DNA of 11,838 nt. Source: Acidithiobacillus ferruginosus. GTDB taxonomy: Bacteria; Pseudomonadota; Gammaproteobacteria; Acidithiobacillales; Acidithiobacillaceae. Positions 2-4,661 of the stretch are shown piece by piece (position 1 is the stretch's first letter; each line of letters opens with the position of its first letter). Made by a program: the position numbers and the translations under genes. The stretch lies in NCBI RefSeq assembly GCF_018854495.1, contig NZ_JABBDR010000093.1, positions 1-11,838 on the forward strand. The letters run 5' to 3'. The notes beneath the pieces were generated by a model. That model made no database searches. It saw nothing but the letters and a program-made list of their open reading frames with translations, and was not told the origin of the DNA.

Positions 2-631
2 CGCCTGAGTGTGACCCAGGCGGGCCAGTTGCCCGCCGATGATGGCGCCGAAGTGGCCATTGCCGGCCGTTCCAATGTCGGCAAGTCATCCACCCTCAAT
101 ATGCTGACCGAGCGCCGGGCACTGGCGCGGGTCAGCCGCACCCCGGGCCGTACCCAGGCCATCAATATTTTCGATCTCGATCCGGGGCAACGCCTCGTGG
201 ACCTGCCCGGCTACGGGTACGCCAAGGTTCCCGAGGCACTGCGGCGCTCCTGGGGACCACTGCTGGAACAATATCTACGGCGGCGCGGCAGCTTGCGCGG
301 ATTGATCCTGGTCATGGATATCCGCCACCCCTATACTGCCCACGATGCCGACCTCATTGCCTTCGCGGAGGGCTGCGGTAGACCGGTGCATGTCTTGCTC
401 AACAAAGCAGACAAACTCAGCCGCGGTGCGGCGACTCAGGAAATGGCCCGCTTGCGGCGGATTCCGGAATTGCAGGGGGTCGCCATGCAGCTATTTTCTG
501 CCCAGTCGGGGTTGGGTATAGATGAGTTGCATGAACGTATAGCAAGATGGCTCACACCGGATGCAGAAAAAGAAACCCCAGCCGAAGCCGGGGCTAATAG
601 CGAGTTCTCAAAGGGAGGGGAGAACTCATGA
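2..631 (+). CDS. engB: Ribosome biogenesis GTP-binding protein EngB (YihA/YsxC), 5' end cut by window
   Basis: EngB is a small Ras-like GTPase needed for assembly of the large ribosomal subunit. The sequence shows a G1/Walker A motif GRSNVGKS (bases 65-88), the switch sequence TPGRTQ, a G3 motif DLPGYG (200-217) and a G4 motif NKAD (401-412), all in the usual EngB order. The frame stays open to the left edge. Family members carry about 20 residues before the segment matching PADDGAEVAIAGRS, so the GTG at base 11 is probably not the true start and the gene begins outside the window. The last 20 or so residues are a Glu/Gly/Ser-rich tail. Their coding DNA overlaps the terminator and hairpins of a candidate small RNA on the other strand, which may constrain this tail more than protein function does. 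The stop TGA is at 629-631. Confidence 0.95.
   Translation, partial: RLSVTQAGQLPADDGAEVAIAGRSNVGKSSTLNMLTERRALARVSRTPGRTQAINIFDLDPGQRLVDLPGYGYAKVPEALRRSWGPLLEQYLRRRGSLRGLILVMDIRHPYTAHDADLIAFAEGCGRPVHVLLNKADKLSRGAATQEMARLRRIPELQGVAMQLFSAQSGLGIDELHERIARWLTPDAEKETPAEAGANSEFSKGGENS
566..595 (-). terminator. Rho-independent terminator with UUCG tetraloop, minus strand
   Basis: Read on the minus strand, CCCCGGC (593-587), loop TTCG (586-583) and GCTGGGG (582-576) form a stem with one G-U pair, which extends by a further G-U and an A-U pair. It is followed directly by the T-rich run TTTCTTTTTC (575-566). Closure of UUCG by C-G gives the extra-stable cUUCGg loop. On the plus strand the same stem has an A-C mismatch and no U tract, so it works as a terminator only leftward. 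It lies inside the 3' end of engB, and no minus-strand protein gene ends here. The simplest reading is the 3' end of the small RNA described next. Confidence 0.75.
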
Positions 632-669
632 TCCGGTCAGGGAGGGTAGACCGGACCCAGACAACCAAC
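567..669 (-). ncRNA. Candidate trans-acting small RNA with two CCCUCCCU loops, Spot 42/ErsA locus
   Basis: This is a predicted RNA of about 100 nt; the 5' end near base 669 is estimated from the promoter and the 3' end from the terminator U tract. Hairpin 1 pairs TCCGGTC (655-649) with GACCGGA (638-632) around the loop UACCCUCCCU. Hairpin 2 pairs GAGTTCTC (627-620) with GAGAACTC (609-602) around the loop CCCUCCCUUU. Both stems are perfect, both loops are 10 nt, and both contain CCCUCCCU, the complement of a strong Shine-Dalgarno sequence. The UUCG terminator hairpin follows. C-rich exposed loops that block ribosome binding are known in several bacterial small RNAs (for example Staphylococcus RsaE-type UCCC motifs). 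Spot 42 and ErsA also sit between polA and engB. No sequence similarity to either is claimed. The strand is assigned from the promoter and terminator; existence and function are inference. Confidence 0.6.
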
Positions 670-693
670 GGGTCATCTATAGCCTTGGAGTGA
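628..693 (+). CDS. Possible 21-codon leader peptide coupled to engB and kch
   Basis: An ATG at 628 overlaps the engB stop as ATGA and opens 21 codons ending in TGA at 691-693, three bases before the kch start. A purine run AGGGAGGGGAG (612-622) precedes it with GGAG 5 nt before the ATG, a strong ribosome binding site. The Shine-Dalgarno of kch lies inside its last codons. This layout would pass ribosomes from engB to kch by translational coupling. Against it, the same bases are explained by the hairpins of the minus-strand small RNA, and the peptide matches no family I recognise. It may simply be chance. Confidence 0.22.
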   Translation: MIRSGRVDRTQTTNGSSIALE

Positions 694-703
694 CGCGTGC
701 CAA
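676..703 (-). promoter_or_regulatory. Sigma70-like promoter for the candidate small RNA
   Basis: On the minus strand, the -35 box TTGGCA (703-698; 5 of 6 consensus) and the -10 box TATAGA (681-676; 4 of 6) are separated by 16 bp. Transcription would begin near base 669. The -35 box overlaps the kch start codon on the other strand, so small-RNA transcription and kch translation initiation share the same DNA. Confidence 0.5.
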
Positions 704-1959
704 AAAAGTTCAGTGAACACCATCCCTGGCACGTTTTGCGGCCAGACCGGCGTGCCCGCTGGCGCGCGCGCCGGCAGCACTGGGCGAACGTCCTCCACCT
801 GGAGGACTGGTACCCGCAATTCCTCATCGCCGCGGCAGTAGGTTTTTTGGGGATATTCAATATCCTCCCGGCCCTGGAGCATCTGCTGGGTCTGAGCTAC
901 GCCGGCAGTCTGGCGGATGTCTCGCACAGCTTTGTGCTGGATGCCTTTCGCGGCGTTCCCCAGGGTGCTGCGGGCGTGGTGTTGCTGATCATGTCCCTGG
1001 GACTGGTCTTCCGCTCCCGTTTTGCCTGGGCCCTCGTCCTGGCCATGGCGACGGCCATCCTCGCCTTTGGAATTTACCGCCATCCTCAGCAGATTTCCGT
1101 GCTGCTCTATTATAATGCCGCGCTGGTCTTTTTCCTCTGGATATTTCGCGGCCGTTTTAACCGCAGCAGTCTGGCCACCGGCACGCTGTTTGCGTTGGTC
1201 GGCGCCATCATGGTCATGAGCTACGGCGTCTTTGGCGCATATATTCTGGGGAACGGGTTCAGACCGCAGATTCATAGCCTGTCCACGGCGCTGTATTTTT
1301 CGGTGGTCACCATGGCTACCGTGGGCTACGGCGATATCCTGCCGGTCAGCAACGAAGCGCGGCTTTTTGTGGTATCTTTAATCGTGCTGGGGATAACGGT
1401 ATTTGCCACGTCGCTTTCGGCCATTATCGTTCCGGCAGTGAACAACCGCCTGCAATCCGCCCTGCAAGGAGAAAAGCGCCACATGATTCGCAAAGGCCAT
1501 TATATTATTGCGGGCGACACCCCGCTGGCGCGCAACAGCTATCGCGAACTCAAGAGTCGCAATCTACCCGTGGTAATGGTGATGGGGCATCAGCCTGATG
1601 ACTCCATCTATCCGCCGGAAGATCTCGTTATCGGCGACTCCAGCGACACGGACGTGCTGCGCAGTGCCGGGGCCGACCAGGCGGCGGCGGTACTTGCCCT
1701 ACGGGCCGACGACTCGGAAAACGCCTTTGTGGTGCTGGCGGTCAAAGAAATGGAGGGCTCCGCCAAAACCGTAGCTGCCGTCAACGATAGCAAAAATCTG
1801 GGACGCGTCCGCCGGGTGCAGCCGGACATGATCATCGCCCCCCAGGTGCTGGGCGGGGAACTGTTGGCCATGGCCCTCAACGGCGAACAACTGGACAGCG
1901 ATGCGGTGATGAAAATGTTCCGCTTCAGCAGCGGAACGGAGACTGCCGGGAAAGACTGA
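697..1959 (+). CDS. kch: Kch-type voltage-gated-like potassium channel with RCK domain
   Basis: This is an inner-membrane potassium channel of 420 aa, close in length and layout to E. coli Kch (about 417 aa). After a basic N-terminus there are hydrophobic segments at about residues 40-62, 88-106, 109-127, 134-150 and 160-184, then the pore loop with selectivity filter TVGYGD (208-213) and a last helix at about 222-245. From residue 268 follows a cytoplasmic RCK/TrkA-N Rossmann domain (HYIIAGD), with the E. coli-like stretches ENAFVVLAVKEM, VNDSKNLGRV and LNGEQLDSD. The start is GTG with TGGAG 6 nt upstream. No Arg-rich S4-type voltage sensor is obvious. The gene lies between engB and polA, which are direct neighbours in many relatives, so it looks inserted there. 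The stop is 2 bases from the polA stop on the other strand. An internal start for a separate RCK protein is listed separately. Confidence 0.9.
   Translation: MPKKFSEHHPWHVLRPDRRARWRARRQHWANVLHLEDWYPQFLIAAAVGFLGIFNILPALEHLLGLSYAGSLADVSHSFVLDAFRGVPQGAAGVVLLIMSLGLVFRSRFAWALVLAMATAILAFGIYRHPQQISVLLYYNAALVFFLWIFRGRFNRSSLATGTLFALVGAIMVMSYGVFGAYILGNGFRPQIHSLSTALYFSVVTMATVGYGDILPVSNEARLFVVSLIVLGITVFATSLSAIIVPAVNNRLQSALQGEKRHMIRKGHYIIAGDTPLARNSYRELKSRNLPVVMVMGHQPDDSIYPPEDLVIGDSSDTDVLRSAGADQAAAVLALRADDSENAFVVLAVKEMEGSAKTVAAVNDSKNLGRVRRVQPDMIIAPQVLGGELLAMALNGEQLDSDAVMKMFRFSSGTETAGKD
1466..1485 (+). promoter_or_regulatory. Internal ribosome binding site and ATG for a free RCK domain of Kch
   Basis: AAGGAG at 1466-1471 stands 11 nt before an in-frame ATG at 1483 (Met263). 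The product would be a soluble 158-aa RCK domain. Met263 aligns with the internal Met (about Met240) from which E. coli kch is known to produce its RCK domain separately; both are followed by an RK-H segment leading into the Rossmann fold. The spacing is slightly long, so efficiency is uncertain. Confidence 0.5.
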
Positions 1960-1961
1960 GT

Positions 1962-4661
1962 TCAGCCGTGCGCTTCATCCCAGTGCTTGCCGATACCCAA
2001 CCCCACGAGGAGCGGCACCGCCAGTTCCGCCACACCTTCCATACGCGCCTTTAGTGCCGACTTCGCAGCCTCCAGGCCGGCCTCCGGCACCTCCAGAATC
2101 AGTTCGTCATGTACCTGGAGAATCATCCGACCACGCTCGGGCTGTTCCTGCAACCAGGCATCCACCGCAATCATCGCCATCTTGATGAGATCCGCCGCAG
2201 TGCCCTGCATAGGTGCGTTAATGGCCGCACGCTCGGCATAATTACGCCGGGCCGGGTTGCTGGAGCGAATTTCCGGTACATACAGACGGCGGCCAAAGAG
2301 CGTCTCCACATAACCCTGCTTTTTCGCCAGGGCACGGGTCTGCTCCATATATTCAAGAACACCCCGATAGCGCTCAAAGTAACGATCCATGTACTGTCGC
2401 GCGGCAGCCTGATCAATGCCCAACTGTTGCGCGAGGCCGTAGGGCGTCTGCCCGTAAATCAGACCGAAGTTGATCGCCTTGGCGGCACGACGTGCGGCAC
2501 TATCCACATCTTCCGGGGCCAGATCAAAGACCTCGGCAGCTGTAACCGCATGAATGTCCTCGCCTTCCGCAAAGGCTTGCAATAGGCGTGCATCCCCGGA
2601 GAGATGGGCCAGGATACGCAGTTCGATCTGTGAGTAATCGGCGCTCAGCAGCCAGTGCCCATTCTCGGCGACAAAAGCCTGGCGGATACGCCGACCCTGT
2701 TCGGTACGCACCGGGATATTTTGCAGATTCGGATCGTTGGAGGAGAGGCGTCCGGTGGCCGCGACCGCCTGCTGAAAATGGGTATGGACCCGGCCGGTGT
2801 CGGGATTGATCATCTGCGGCAGTGCATCTGCATAGGTGTTTTTGAGCTTGGCCATGCCACGATAATCAAGAATCAGGCGCGGCAGATCGGCGTGAACCGC
2901 GAGCTGGGCGAGCACGTCTTCATTGGTCGACGGCTGACCGCCGGGGGTTTTTTTGAGTACCGGCAACCGCATCTTGTCGAAGAGAACTTCCTGGATCTGC
3001 TTGGGGGAGTTGAGGTTGAAGGACTGCCCCGCCAGAACAAAAGCCTTCTGTTCACAGTCCGCCATATCTTTACGCAGTTCCGTGCTCAGCACTTCGAGCT
3101 GGGCACGATCGATTTTGACACCCGCTTCTTCCATACGCGCCAGCACCAGCACCAGCGGCATTTCTATTTCCATCAACACGCGCCGCAAGCCCGGTTCGCT
3201 GGCGAACCGCGGCCAGAGCTGCGCGTCCACACGCAGACAGACATCGGCATCCTCTGCCGCGTAGGGCAGCGCCTCCGCTACCGGCACATCGGCAAAATTA
3301 CGCGCTGACTTGCCTTTGCCGACCACCTCTTCGTAGCGGATGTTCTGATGTTGCAGGTAGCGCTCGGCGAGGGTGTCTAGATCGTGACCGTTGTGACTGC
3401 TGTTTAAGACGTAGCTTTCCAGCAACGTGTCGCGGGCCAGGCCGGCGGGGTGGATACCATGTCGCCAGAAAACCCGCCAATCGTATTTAGCGTTCTGGGC
3501 CAGCTTGGCGGCCTGTGGGTCTTCCAGCCACGGGCGCAAGGCGGTGAGGACTGTCTGTCGATCCAGTTGCGGACCAGCGTCGCGGTGGCCAACGGGAACG
3601 TAGACAGCCTGATAGTCGCCACCGGCCTGCCAGGCGCAGGAAATCCCCACCAGATCGGCATGCAGCGGATCGAGGCTCGTGGTTTCCGTGTCCAAAGCGA
3701 CCACATCGGCCGCTTTCAGGGCAAACAGCAGCGTATCCAGCGCTTCCGCAGTGGTGATGGCCTGGTAGGCGGCGCGATCTATATCACTGCTCCGCTTTTC
3801 CGGCACTTTCCCCGCATCGTCCGCAGGCAGGTCCCTGAGCCAGGCATGAAAACCCAGGCGCTGCGCCAGCGCCCGCAGGGCGACCACATCCGCCGCCCGG
3901 CGGGCGTAAGTCGCGACAGGCAACGTCAGATCACAGCGAATGGTCGCCAGATCGCGGCTCAACGGCAGATAATGTGCGGAGGCACGCAGCACCTCACCCA
4001 CCTTGCCGCCGATGTCGCCGGCGTGGGCCAGCACGCCGTCCAGATCGCCATATTGCGTCAGCCACCGGGCGGCCGTTTTCGGCCCGACGCCGGGCACGCC
4101 GGGGATGTTGTCCACCTTGTCGCCGATCAGCGCCAGCAGGTCGGCAATACGCTCCGGCGGCACACCAAAGCGCTCCTCAACCCCGGCCACATCCGTTTCG
4201 ATACCTTTCATGGTGTCGATAAGCCGCACCCGCGAATTCACCAATTGAGCCATATCCTTGTCGCCGGTGACGATAAGCACCTGCTGGTCGGGCGCCGCCT
4301 CCCGGGCCAGGGTGCCGATCACGTCATCCGCCTCCACGTCGGGCTCGATCACGAGCGGCAAGCCGGTAGCCCTGATCCAGTCGTGCAGCAGCGGAACCTG
4401 GACCCGTAGCTCCTCCGGCATGGCGGGCCGGTGTGCCTTATACTCAGGATAAAGTCTGTCCCGGAACGTCCCGCCGGGGGCGTCGAATATGACGATGATT
4501 TCGTCACTCGGATGCTCCTTCAGCAGGCGGCGGAGCATGTTGGCGACACCGTAAATAGCTCCGGTCGGAAGATTGTCCGGGGCGCGCAAGTCAGGCAGCG
4601 CGTGAAAGGCACGATAGAGGAAGCTGGAGGCATCGACGAGGATACGGGGATCTTGGGGCAT
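1962..4661 (-). CDS. polA: DNA polymerase I
   Basis: The 899-aa protein fills gaps during Okazaki fragment maturation and excision repair. All three domains appear intact. The 5'-3' nuclease (about 1-290) has VEADDVIG (109-116), TGDKDMAQL (132-140) and GDKVDNIPGVPGVGPKTA (180-197). The 3'-5' proofreading domain (about 300-485) keeps its acidic residues in LDTET (323-327), AQNAKYD (388-394) and YAAED (467-471), so it should be active, unlike in the Thermus or Bacillus enzymes. The polymerase domain has motif A DYSQIE (675-680), motif B INFGLIYG (730-737) and motif C VHDE (850-853). E. coli Pol I is 928 aa. The start ATG at 4661 has only a distant GGAG upstream (about 12 nt). There is no space for a terminator after the stop, so the transcript must continue into DNA antisense to kch. 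Confidence 0.97.
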   Translation of the reverse strand: MPQDPRILVDASSFLYRAFHALPDLRAPDNLPTGAIYGVANMLRRLLKEHPSDEIIVIFDAPGGTFRDRLYPEYKAHRPAMPEELRVQVPLLHDWIRATGLPLVIEPDVEADDVIGTLAREAAPDQQVLIVTGDKDMAQLVNSRVRLIDTMKGIETDVAGVEERFGVPPERIADLLALIGDKVDNIPGVPGVGPKTAARWLTQYGDLDGVLAHAGDIGGKVGEVLRASAHYLPLSRDLATIRCDLTLPVATYARRAADVVALRALAQRLGFHAWLRDLPADDAGKVPEKRSSDIDRAAYQAITTAEALDTLLFALKAADVVALDTETTSLDPLHADLVGISCAWQAGGDYQAVYVPVGHRDAGPQLDRQTVLTALRPWLEDPQAAKLAQNAKYDWRVFWRHGIHPAGLARDTLLESYVLNSSHNGHDLDTLAERYLQHQNIRYEEVVGKGKSARNFADVPVAEALPYAAEDADVCLRVDAQLWPRFASEPGLRRVLMEIEMPLVLVLARMEEAGVKIDRAQLEVLSTELRKDMADCEQKAFVLAGQSFNLNSPKQIQEVLFDKMRLPVLKKTPGGQPSTNEDVLAQLAVHADLPRLILDYRGMAKLKNTYADALPQMINPDTGRVHTHFQQAVAATGRLSSNDPNLQNIPVRTEQGRRIRQAFVAENGHWLLSADYSQIELRILAHLSGDARLLQAFAEGEDIHAVTAAEVFDLAPEDVDSAARRAAKAINFGLIYGQTPYGLAQQLGIDQAAARQYMDRYFERYRGVLEYMEQTRALAKKQGYVETLFGRRLYVPEIRSSNPARRNYAERAAINAPMQGTAADLIKMAMIAVDAWLQEQPERGRMILQVHDELILEVPEAGLEAAKSALKARMEGVAELAVPLLVGLGIGKHWDEAHG

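Follow-up and report, generated by a model that had tools for sequence, protein, structure and literature searches.

The window, that is, the whole 11,838-nucleotide stretch of Acidithiobacillus ferruginosus DNA analyzed here, carries, in the following order, engB on the plus strand, a small-RNA gene on the minus strand, a voltage-gated potassium channel gene on the plus strand, and polA on the minus strand (Table 1). The sequence-only reading that preceded this analysis had described the RNA gene as lying in a region with no protein gene; the engB frame, however, extends to position 631, so that the terminator and the second hairpin of the RNA are embedded in engB on the opposite strand, with the last 68 nt of engB (564–631) being antisense to the span of the RNA model.

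Table 1. Features of the engB–polA region of the window.
Feature	Position	Strand	Details
engB	2..631	+	5' end open; TIGR03598 214.4 bits, cut-off 124.45
Small RNA gene	566..680	-	~112-115 nt; ends predicted from the -10 element (5') and the terminator (3')
Intrinsic terminator and U-rich tail	566..595	-	stem 574-595, C-UUCG-G loop
Hairpin 2	602..627	-	8 perfect pairs; loop CCCUCCCUUU at 610-619; from the fold
Hairpin 1	630..657	-	9 pairs including one G-U; loop UACCCUCCCU at 639-648; from the fold
-10 element TCCAA	685..689	-	on the other strand, part of the channel gene's Shine-Dalgarno TTGGAG
-35 element GAACTT, sigmaE type	706..711	-	GAACTT-N16-TCCAA at 685-711
Voltage-gated potassium channel gene (TrkA-N domain)	697..1959	+	between the RNA gene and polA; NF007828 518.3 bits, cut-off 425; Pfam
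polA	1962..4661	-	same strand as the RNA; NF004397 1143.7 bits, cut-off 720

Read 5' to 3', the minus strand presents GAACTT (711–706), TCCAA (689–685), hairpin 1, hairpin 2, and a terminator with its U-rich tail, and in the fold of this strand both hairpin loops carry CCCUCCCU. Folding and a terminator scan recovered the two hairpins with 10-nt loops, the leftward terminator with its C-UUCG-G loop, and the U-rich tail much as first described, with the qualification that the term "perfect" then applied to both hairpins fits hairpin 2 but not hairpin 1, whose helix includes a G-U pair. Terminators were found on the minus strand only in the scan of positions 400–1000, and none of 200 shuffles was as stable as the minus-strand sequence, either for 566–680 (z -6.19) or for 564–677 (z -5.13). 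By its count alone, the CCCTCCC motif stays within chance, with 4 occurrences in the window versus 2.98 expected; what does exceed chance is the conservation and co-variation of the RNA locus, rather than the motif count.

Of 40 related genomes searched at the DNA level, 23 gave matches: all 17 of the genus (the window's own included), six of the eight others in the family, and none of the 15 beyond, with 23 loci, including that of the window, being aligned. The sequence-only reading had asked whether the loops and terminator are lost in relatives that keep engB, and they are not: every one of the 23 loci has the CCUCCCU core in loop 1, and 21 of them have it in loop 2 as well (the exceptions being L010 and L018), CCTCCCTG of loop 1 is invariant throughout, and so are the CCC/GGGG core of the terminator and four T of its tail. 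In L018 (1499–1598), a locus of the same family, hairpin 2 retains its stem and loop 1 is intact, while the CCUCCCU of loop 2 is gone. Pairing is maintained in 96.7% of the cells of the 23-locus alignment and in 99.3% of those in the hairpin 2 helix, and two-sided changes occur in 10 of 25 pairs versus a mean of 4.9 in shuffles, none of 500 shuffles reaching 10. A covariance model built from these 23 family sequences, hereafter R1, scores the window RNA at 112.4 bits (564–662), this locus being among the 23 from which the model was made, and the locus of Acidithiobacillus sp. HP-2 (L118) at 116.4 bits. A covariance search of related genomes had been suggested at the outset; R1 has matches in 28 of the order's 31 genomes, including all 25 of good quality, although one match among the latter (L051, E 6.8e-4) has neither promoter nor loops and resembles a chance match, so that 24 of 25 is the more cautious figure. 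A minus-strand RNA gene beside engB is thus very probably real.

A conserved motif lies ahead of this gene. GAACTT-N16/17-TCNAA lies 25–40 bases ahead of CCTCCCTG in every one of the 23 aligned loci, whereas the TTGGCA/TATAGA pair originally proposed as the promoter, whose letters are indeed present in the window, recurs as TTGGCA-N15-18-TATAGA in only two of the 23, and a scan of positions 400–1000 returned no sigma70-like site; a sigma70 promoter was rejected as the conserved one on these grounds. Outside the genus, the form GAACTT-N16/17-TCNNA, which we take to be the RpoE/AlgU (sigmaE) consensus, stands within 110 nt upstream of 17 of 22 loci found by R1, against 0.012 expected from mononucleotide shuffles; six of these 22 loci are also among the 23, leaving 16 new ones, of which 11 carry the motif. 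The five misses are the doubtful L051, L054 and L055 (both with TCTAC), L057 (GAACTC), and L060 (none). In members of the genus, the motif shares bases with the Shine-Dalgarno sequence and the opening codons of the channel gene, and part of its conservation there may therefore be coding; outside the Acidithiobacillaceae, where tblastn places no channel gene beside the RNA, the motif is still present. The genome of the window contains an RpoE gene (TIGR02939, 347.7 bits, cut-off 236.15). On this basis we propose that an RpoE-type RNA polymerase would start the RNA at GAACTT-N16-TCCAA, that the terminator would end it, and that envelope stress probably induces the RNA.

Several observations would also suit a genuine small RNA of this family that is expressed at a more or less constant level from a housekeeping or another ECF sigma factor. 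The TTGGCA/TATAGA pair does exist in the window; GAACTT-N16/17-TCNNA is not enriched in the genome of the window (14 sites versus 15 in the reversed control); it was not found upstream of rpoE in 10 loci, and a looser form of it is found upstream of rpoE in none of the 24 loci listed, whose frames were picked automatically and include at least one doubtful case. An RpoE regulon built on this motif is therefore unsupported, and no sign of RpoE autoregulation through it was seen in these loci. The strict motif is likewise missing upstream of many of the loci found with the Rfam models of the RNAs ErsA and sX13, and one report describes no significant change in the expression of ncS04, a relative considered below, by qPCR in seven conditions (PMC5688073). 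Against this, two of the 23 loci keep the sigma70 pair while all 23 keep the sigmaE-type motif, which is also present at 11 of the 16 further R1-found loci, and we consider this alternative unlikely.

Matches to the RNA extend well beyond the order. Across 369 genomes of the class R1 matched 49 at E <= 0.001, and of the 15 loci from these genomes that were taken further 11 lie outside the order (L052–L062), eight of them with engB or polA within their 1.5 kb flanks as judged by tblastn. For the remaining three (L052, L053, and L057) tblastn found neither gene in the wider stretches L230, L229, and L231, respectively; L052 and L053 have the same promoter type, and L057 nearly so. A pattern composed of the promoter and loop 1, both of which are consequently present by construction in whatever it retrieves, was scanned against a collection of 84,980 species and gave at least 118 stretches, at least 80 of which were made into loci. 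These belong mostly to Beta- and Gammaproteobacteria, with two coming from Acidithiobacillus and some being assigned only to Proteobacteria. Among the 80 listed of these at least 80 loci, engB is present in 66, in convergent orientation in 65 and within 400 nt in all but L108 and L127; polA is present in 14, and one or the other in 68. The odd one out in orientation is L113 (Amantichitinum ursilacus), where the RNA lies beside engB and in the same orientation. R1 matches all 80 listed loci at E <= 0.039, with loop 1 contributing by construction, and when 60 matches drawn from a chosen set of 57 loci are fitted to R1, 95.6% of cells are paired and two-sided changes affect 23 of 25 pairs versus 17.4 in shuffles. 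The distant loci examined preserve loop 1 but usually have a different loop 2, so that two interchangeable seeds are no general design; identical twin loops are a trait of the family Acidithiobacillaceae. Of the trans-acting repressor with two interchangeable seed loops that was envisaged at first, the C-rich, Shine-Dalgarno-complementary loops stand and the interchangeability does not hold as a general design.

The relationship of the RNA to engB varies between lineages, and this bears on its function. The stop codon of engB lies 68 nt inside the RNA span in all nine genus loci measured and 41–131 nt inside it in six other Acidithiobacillaceae loci (15 loci of the family in total), whereas in eight loci outside the family (L048, L049, L054–L056, and L060–L062) the overlap ranges from -596 to +26 nt, with engB stopping before or just inside the RNA. 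This distribution points to the overlap as a derived state, engB having probably been extended across the RNA gene. Because engB enters the RNA gene in the Acidithiobacillaceae, the tail of EngB is written opposite the loops: its C terminus there is usually SKGGEDS, SKGGENS, or close to these, which is the antisense of loop 2, and in the window the stretch 564–631 codes for this tail across from the terminator and loop 2, a case of an RNA gene overprinted with the end of a protein. Complementarity to engB of this extent could suggest a cis-antisense RNA acting on the overlapped engB–channel message, a function that we regard as improbable, since the overlap of -596 to +26 nt in the eight loci outside the family, all with loop 1 kept, means that it cannot be the shared function, and since the inferred start of the RNA falls just beyond the Shine-Dalgarno sequence of the channel gene. 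The placement of hairpin 2 and the terminator within engB codons in the Acidithiobacillaceae might even mean that the conserved bases represent nothing but a simple terminator and the C terminus of EngB, with no RNA gene at all; this interpretation is disfavoured and very improbable, given that engB stops short of hairpin 1 in the genus, that two-sided changes keep the pairs, and that the RNA persists in other lineages where engB ends before it or just inside it. CsrA binds GGA, and GGA is contained in the plus-strand complements of the loops, but a functional plus-strand RNA acting as a CsrA/RsmA-type sponge with AGGGAGGG loops was rejected as highly improbable, as the plus strand folds worse (z -2.48 versus -5.13), hairpin 1 is absent from its best structure, and the terminators are confined to the minus strand.

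The small RNA on the minus strand has to be compared with RNAs already described at similar sites, of which we consider anti-hemB, ErsA, and sX13. An Rfam search of the window returned no family at threshold; the window RNA scores 28.9 bits (E 0.0069) against anti-hemB (RF02837), below the gathering score of 49.5, and is thus a relative rather than a listed member. The anti-hemB threshold is passed, in contrast, by 12 of 18 pattern loci picked for breadth out of the at least 80, the pattern that caught them having been taken from the Acidithiobacillaceae family and its relatives. Anti-hemB (Burkholderia RNA 7; ncS04 of B. cenocepacia) shares with the window RNA its hairpins and terminator as well as a loop 1 with CCUCCCUG, and the anti-hemB-type loci that pass the threshold have the same succession of C-rich hairpins and a terminator hairpin, convergent with engB; the window RNA differs in the second CCCUCCCU in loop 2, in a terminator loop that is not C-rich, and in its overlap with engB. 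Anti-hemB/ncS04 is reported as an RNA of 105 nt detected by RNA-seq and northern blot, with Hfq binding reported from another paper (PMC5688073), and Anti-hemB is listed as a known sRNA elsewhere (PMC3521395).

The models of ErsA/Pseudomon-1 (RF01719) and sX13 (RF02232), each with a threshold of 50 bits, gave no match in the genome of the window, nor any at the locus of the window up to E 10. The ErsA model has matches in 13 genomes, with engB or polA adjoining in 12 (the exception being L257, a truncated locus) and the strict promoter upstream in five; a single match is above threshold (L247), with GAACTT..TCATA upstream of it. ErsA resembles the window RNA in occupying the polA–engB interval, where in the window the channel gene intervenes between polA and the RNA, and in its sigma22/RpoE-type promoter; the ErsA of P. 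aeruginosa is unlike it in length, in its loops, and in its U-rich pairing region. Its length is given as 132 nt (PMC5819304), its location as the polA–engB interval with pairing via a U-rich region (PMC8575079), and its expression as dependent on sigma22 and its action as aided by Hfq (PMC8395346), with Pseudomon-1 being listed for Pseudomonadales (PMC2864571). The sX13 model has matches in 15 genomes, with engB or polA adjoining in nine; three are above threshold, all beside polA, and the strict promoter lies upstream of three of the 15 loci, none of these being the above-threshold copies, which in this respect are unlike the window RNA. The sX13 RNA of Xanthomonas has in common with the window RNA a position near polA and C-rich loops; it carries three of them (4C/4C/5C), whereas the window RNA has two and a UUCG terminator loop. 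As described, sX13 is a 115-nt RNA beside polA with three C-rich loops that represses messages with G-rich motifs, Hfq being dispensable, and its authors placed it in Xanthomonadaceae only and asked whether the polA loci of other bacteria encode such RNAs (PMC3771888). In the reverse direction, R1 picks up three true sX13 (E 0.0005, 0.0097, and 0.075) as well as the true ErsA (E 0.088), weakly but at the right place, and L054 and L249, each matching two Rfam models below threshold, provide a link between the families. Spot 42 (spf) of E. coli shows the same order and orientation, namely polA, an RNA on the polA strand, and a convergent yihA/engB, and its homology was rejected because R1 had no match up to E 10 in a 6.5 kb E. 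coli stretch (L345), the comparison having been made in one direction.

Conservation, co-variation, the conserved promoter motif, and homology to RNAs that are known to be expressed together make the minus-strand small-RNA gene with C-rich, Shine-Dalgarno-complementary loops, as initially noted, well supported. The reading we favour, at a probability of about 0.74, is a trans-acting small RNA of ~112 nt encoded on the minus strand, which represents in Acidithiobacillus an ancient RNA of the polA–engB site known elsewhere as anti-hemB, ErsA, and sX13. Started by RpoE, this RNA would use its CCUCCCU loops to imitate the anti-Shine-Dalgarno sequence of the ribosome and pair with G-rich ribosome-binding sites, and we propose that such pairing would leave the target messages untranslated, the repression being probably part of an envelope-stress response. 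The genome of the window has an Hfq gene, and the RNA has a U-rich tail. We also hold it to be a somewhat better than even proposition that ErsA, sX13, anti-hemB, and the Acidithiobacillus RNA constitute one vertically inherited, mostly sigmaE-driven family at engB/polA that predates the split of Beta- and Gammaproteobacteria, in which loop 1 is a fixed anti-Shine-Dalgarno (CCUCCCUG in most branches), loop 2 is free, tandem copying has occurred repeatedly, and the EngB tail has been overprinted in the Acidithiobacillaceae.

With respect to targets, AAGGGAGG-N4-9-ATG sites number 11, 11, 12, and 4 in four genomes versus 5, 2, 0, and 2 in the reversed control. One such site in each of G000 (the genome of the window), G006, and G004 corresponds to the tail of engB that is antisense to the RNA. 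Target prediction with the loops, another of the checks initially proposed, yielded two recurring genes and none conserved across the genus: a glutamine amidotransferase, taken for trpG/pabA, recurs in G000 and G006, with the site in G004 preceding a short frame, and in two of 17 genomes (G000:C130:8567 and G006:C31:648) the ATG of a PagL-family (lipid A deacylase) gene is closely preceded by 11 nt perfectly complementary to loop 2, the frame from that ATG in G000 comprising only 53 codons. Apart from the RNA gene itself, the six loci with the 11-nt complement of loop 1 showed no recurring gene. The trpG/pabA-like and PagL-family genes may be targets, but we treat them as weak leads rather than results. 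The hfq gene is a target of sX13; in G000 its ribosome-binding site is AAGGAG, without a long G run (L299).

ErsA is involved in the control of biofilm formation and porins, sX13 in plant infection, and anti-hemB belongs to Burkholderia. If the family reading is true, these RNAs, which have been studied apart, become one family with one likely logic, in which envelope stress would trigger an RNA with loops that mimic the anti-Shine-Dalgarno sequence of the ribosome, and Acidithiobacillus gains a candidate sigmaE small RNA with a testable promoter. The main value of the window RNA would lie in this link between RNA families described apart: the table of Rfam lists ErsA, sX13, and anti-hemB without a clan, and we found no paper joining the three among open-licence PMC papers, which is weak evidence of absence. 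To the question posed by the authors of sX13, the loci presented here answer yes for many lineages. The sequence-only reading, in turn, spotted the RNA gene correctly, had the promoter wrong, and took too local a view.

The neighbourhood of the RNA shows some further variation. Judging from the window (697–1959) and L020, L022, and L023, members of the genus have the potassium channel gene between polA and the RNA, in one sister lineage only the part of the channel gene from residue 266 onward is found at the site by tblastn, and in family f2 of the same order (L048 and L049) tblastn finds no channel gene in the flanks examined. The RNA itself occurs in tandem copies detected by R1 in several loci: five in L228 (1071–1805), four each in L236/L248 (one genome) and L241 (where the weakest has E 0.053), and two each in L061, L072, and L075.
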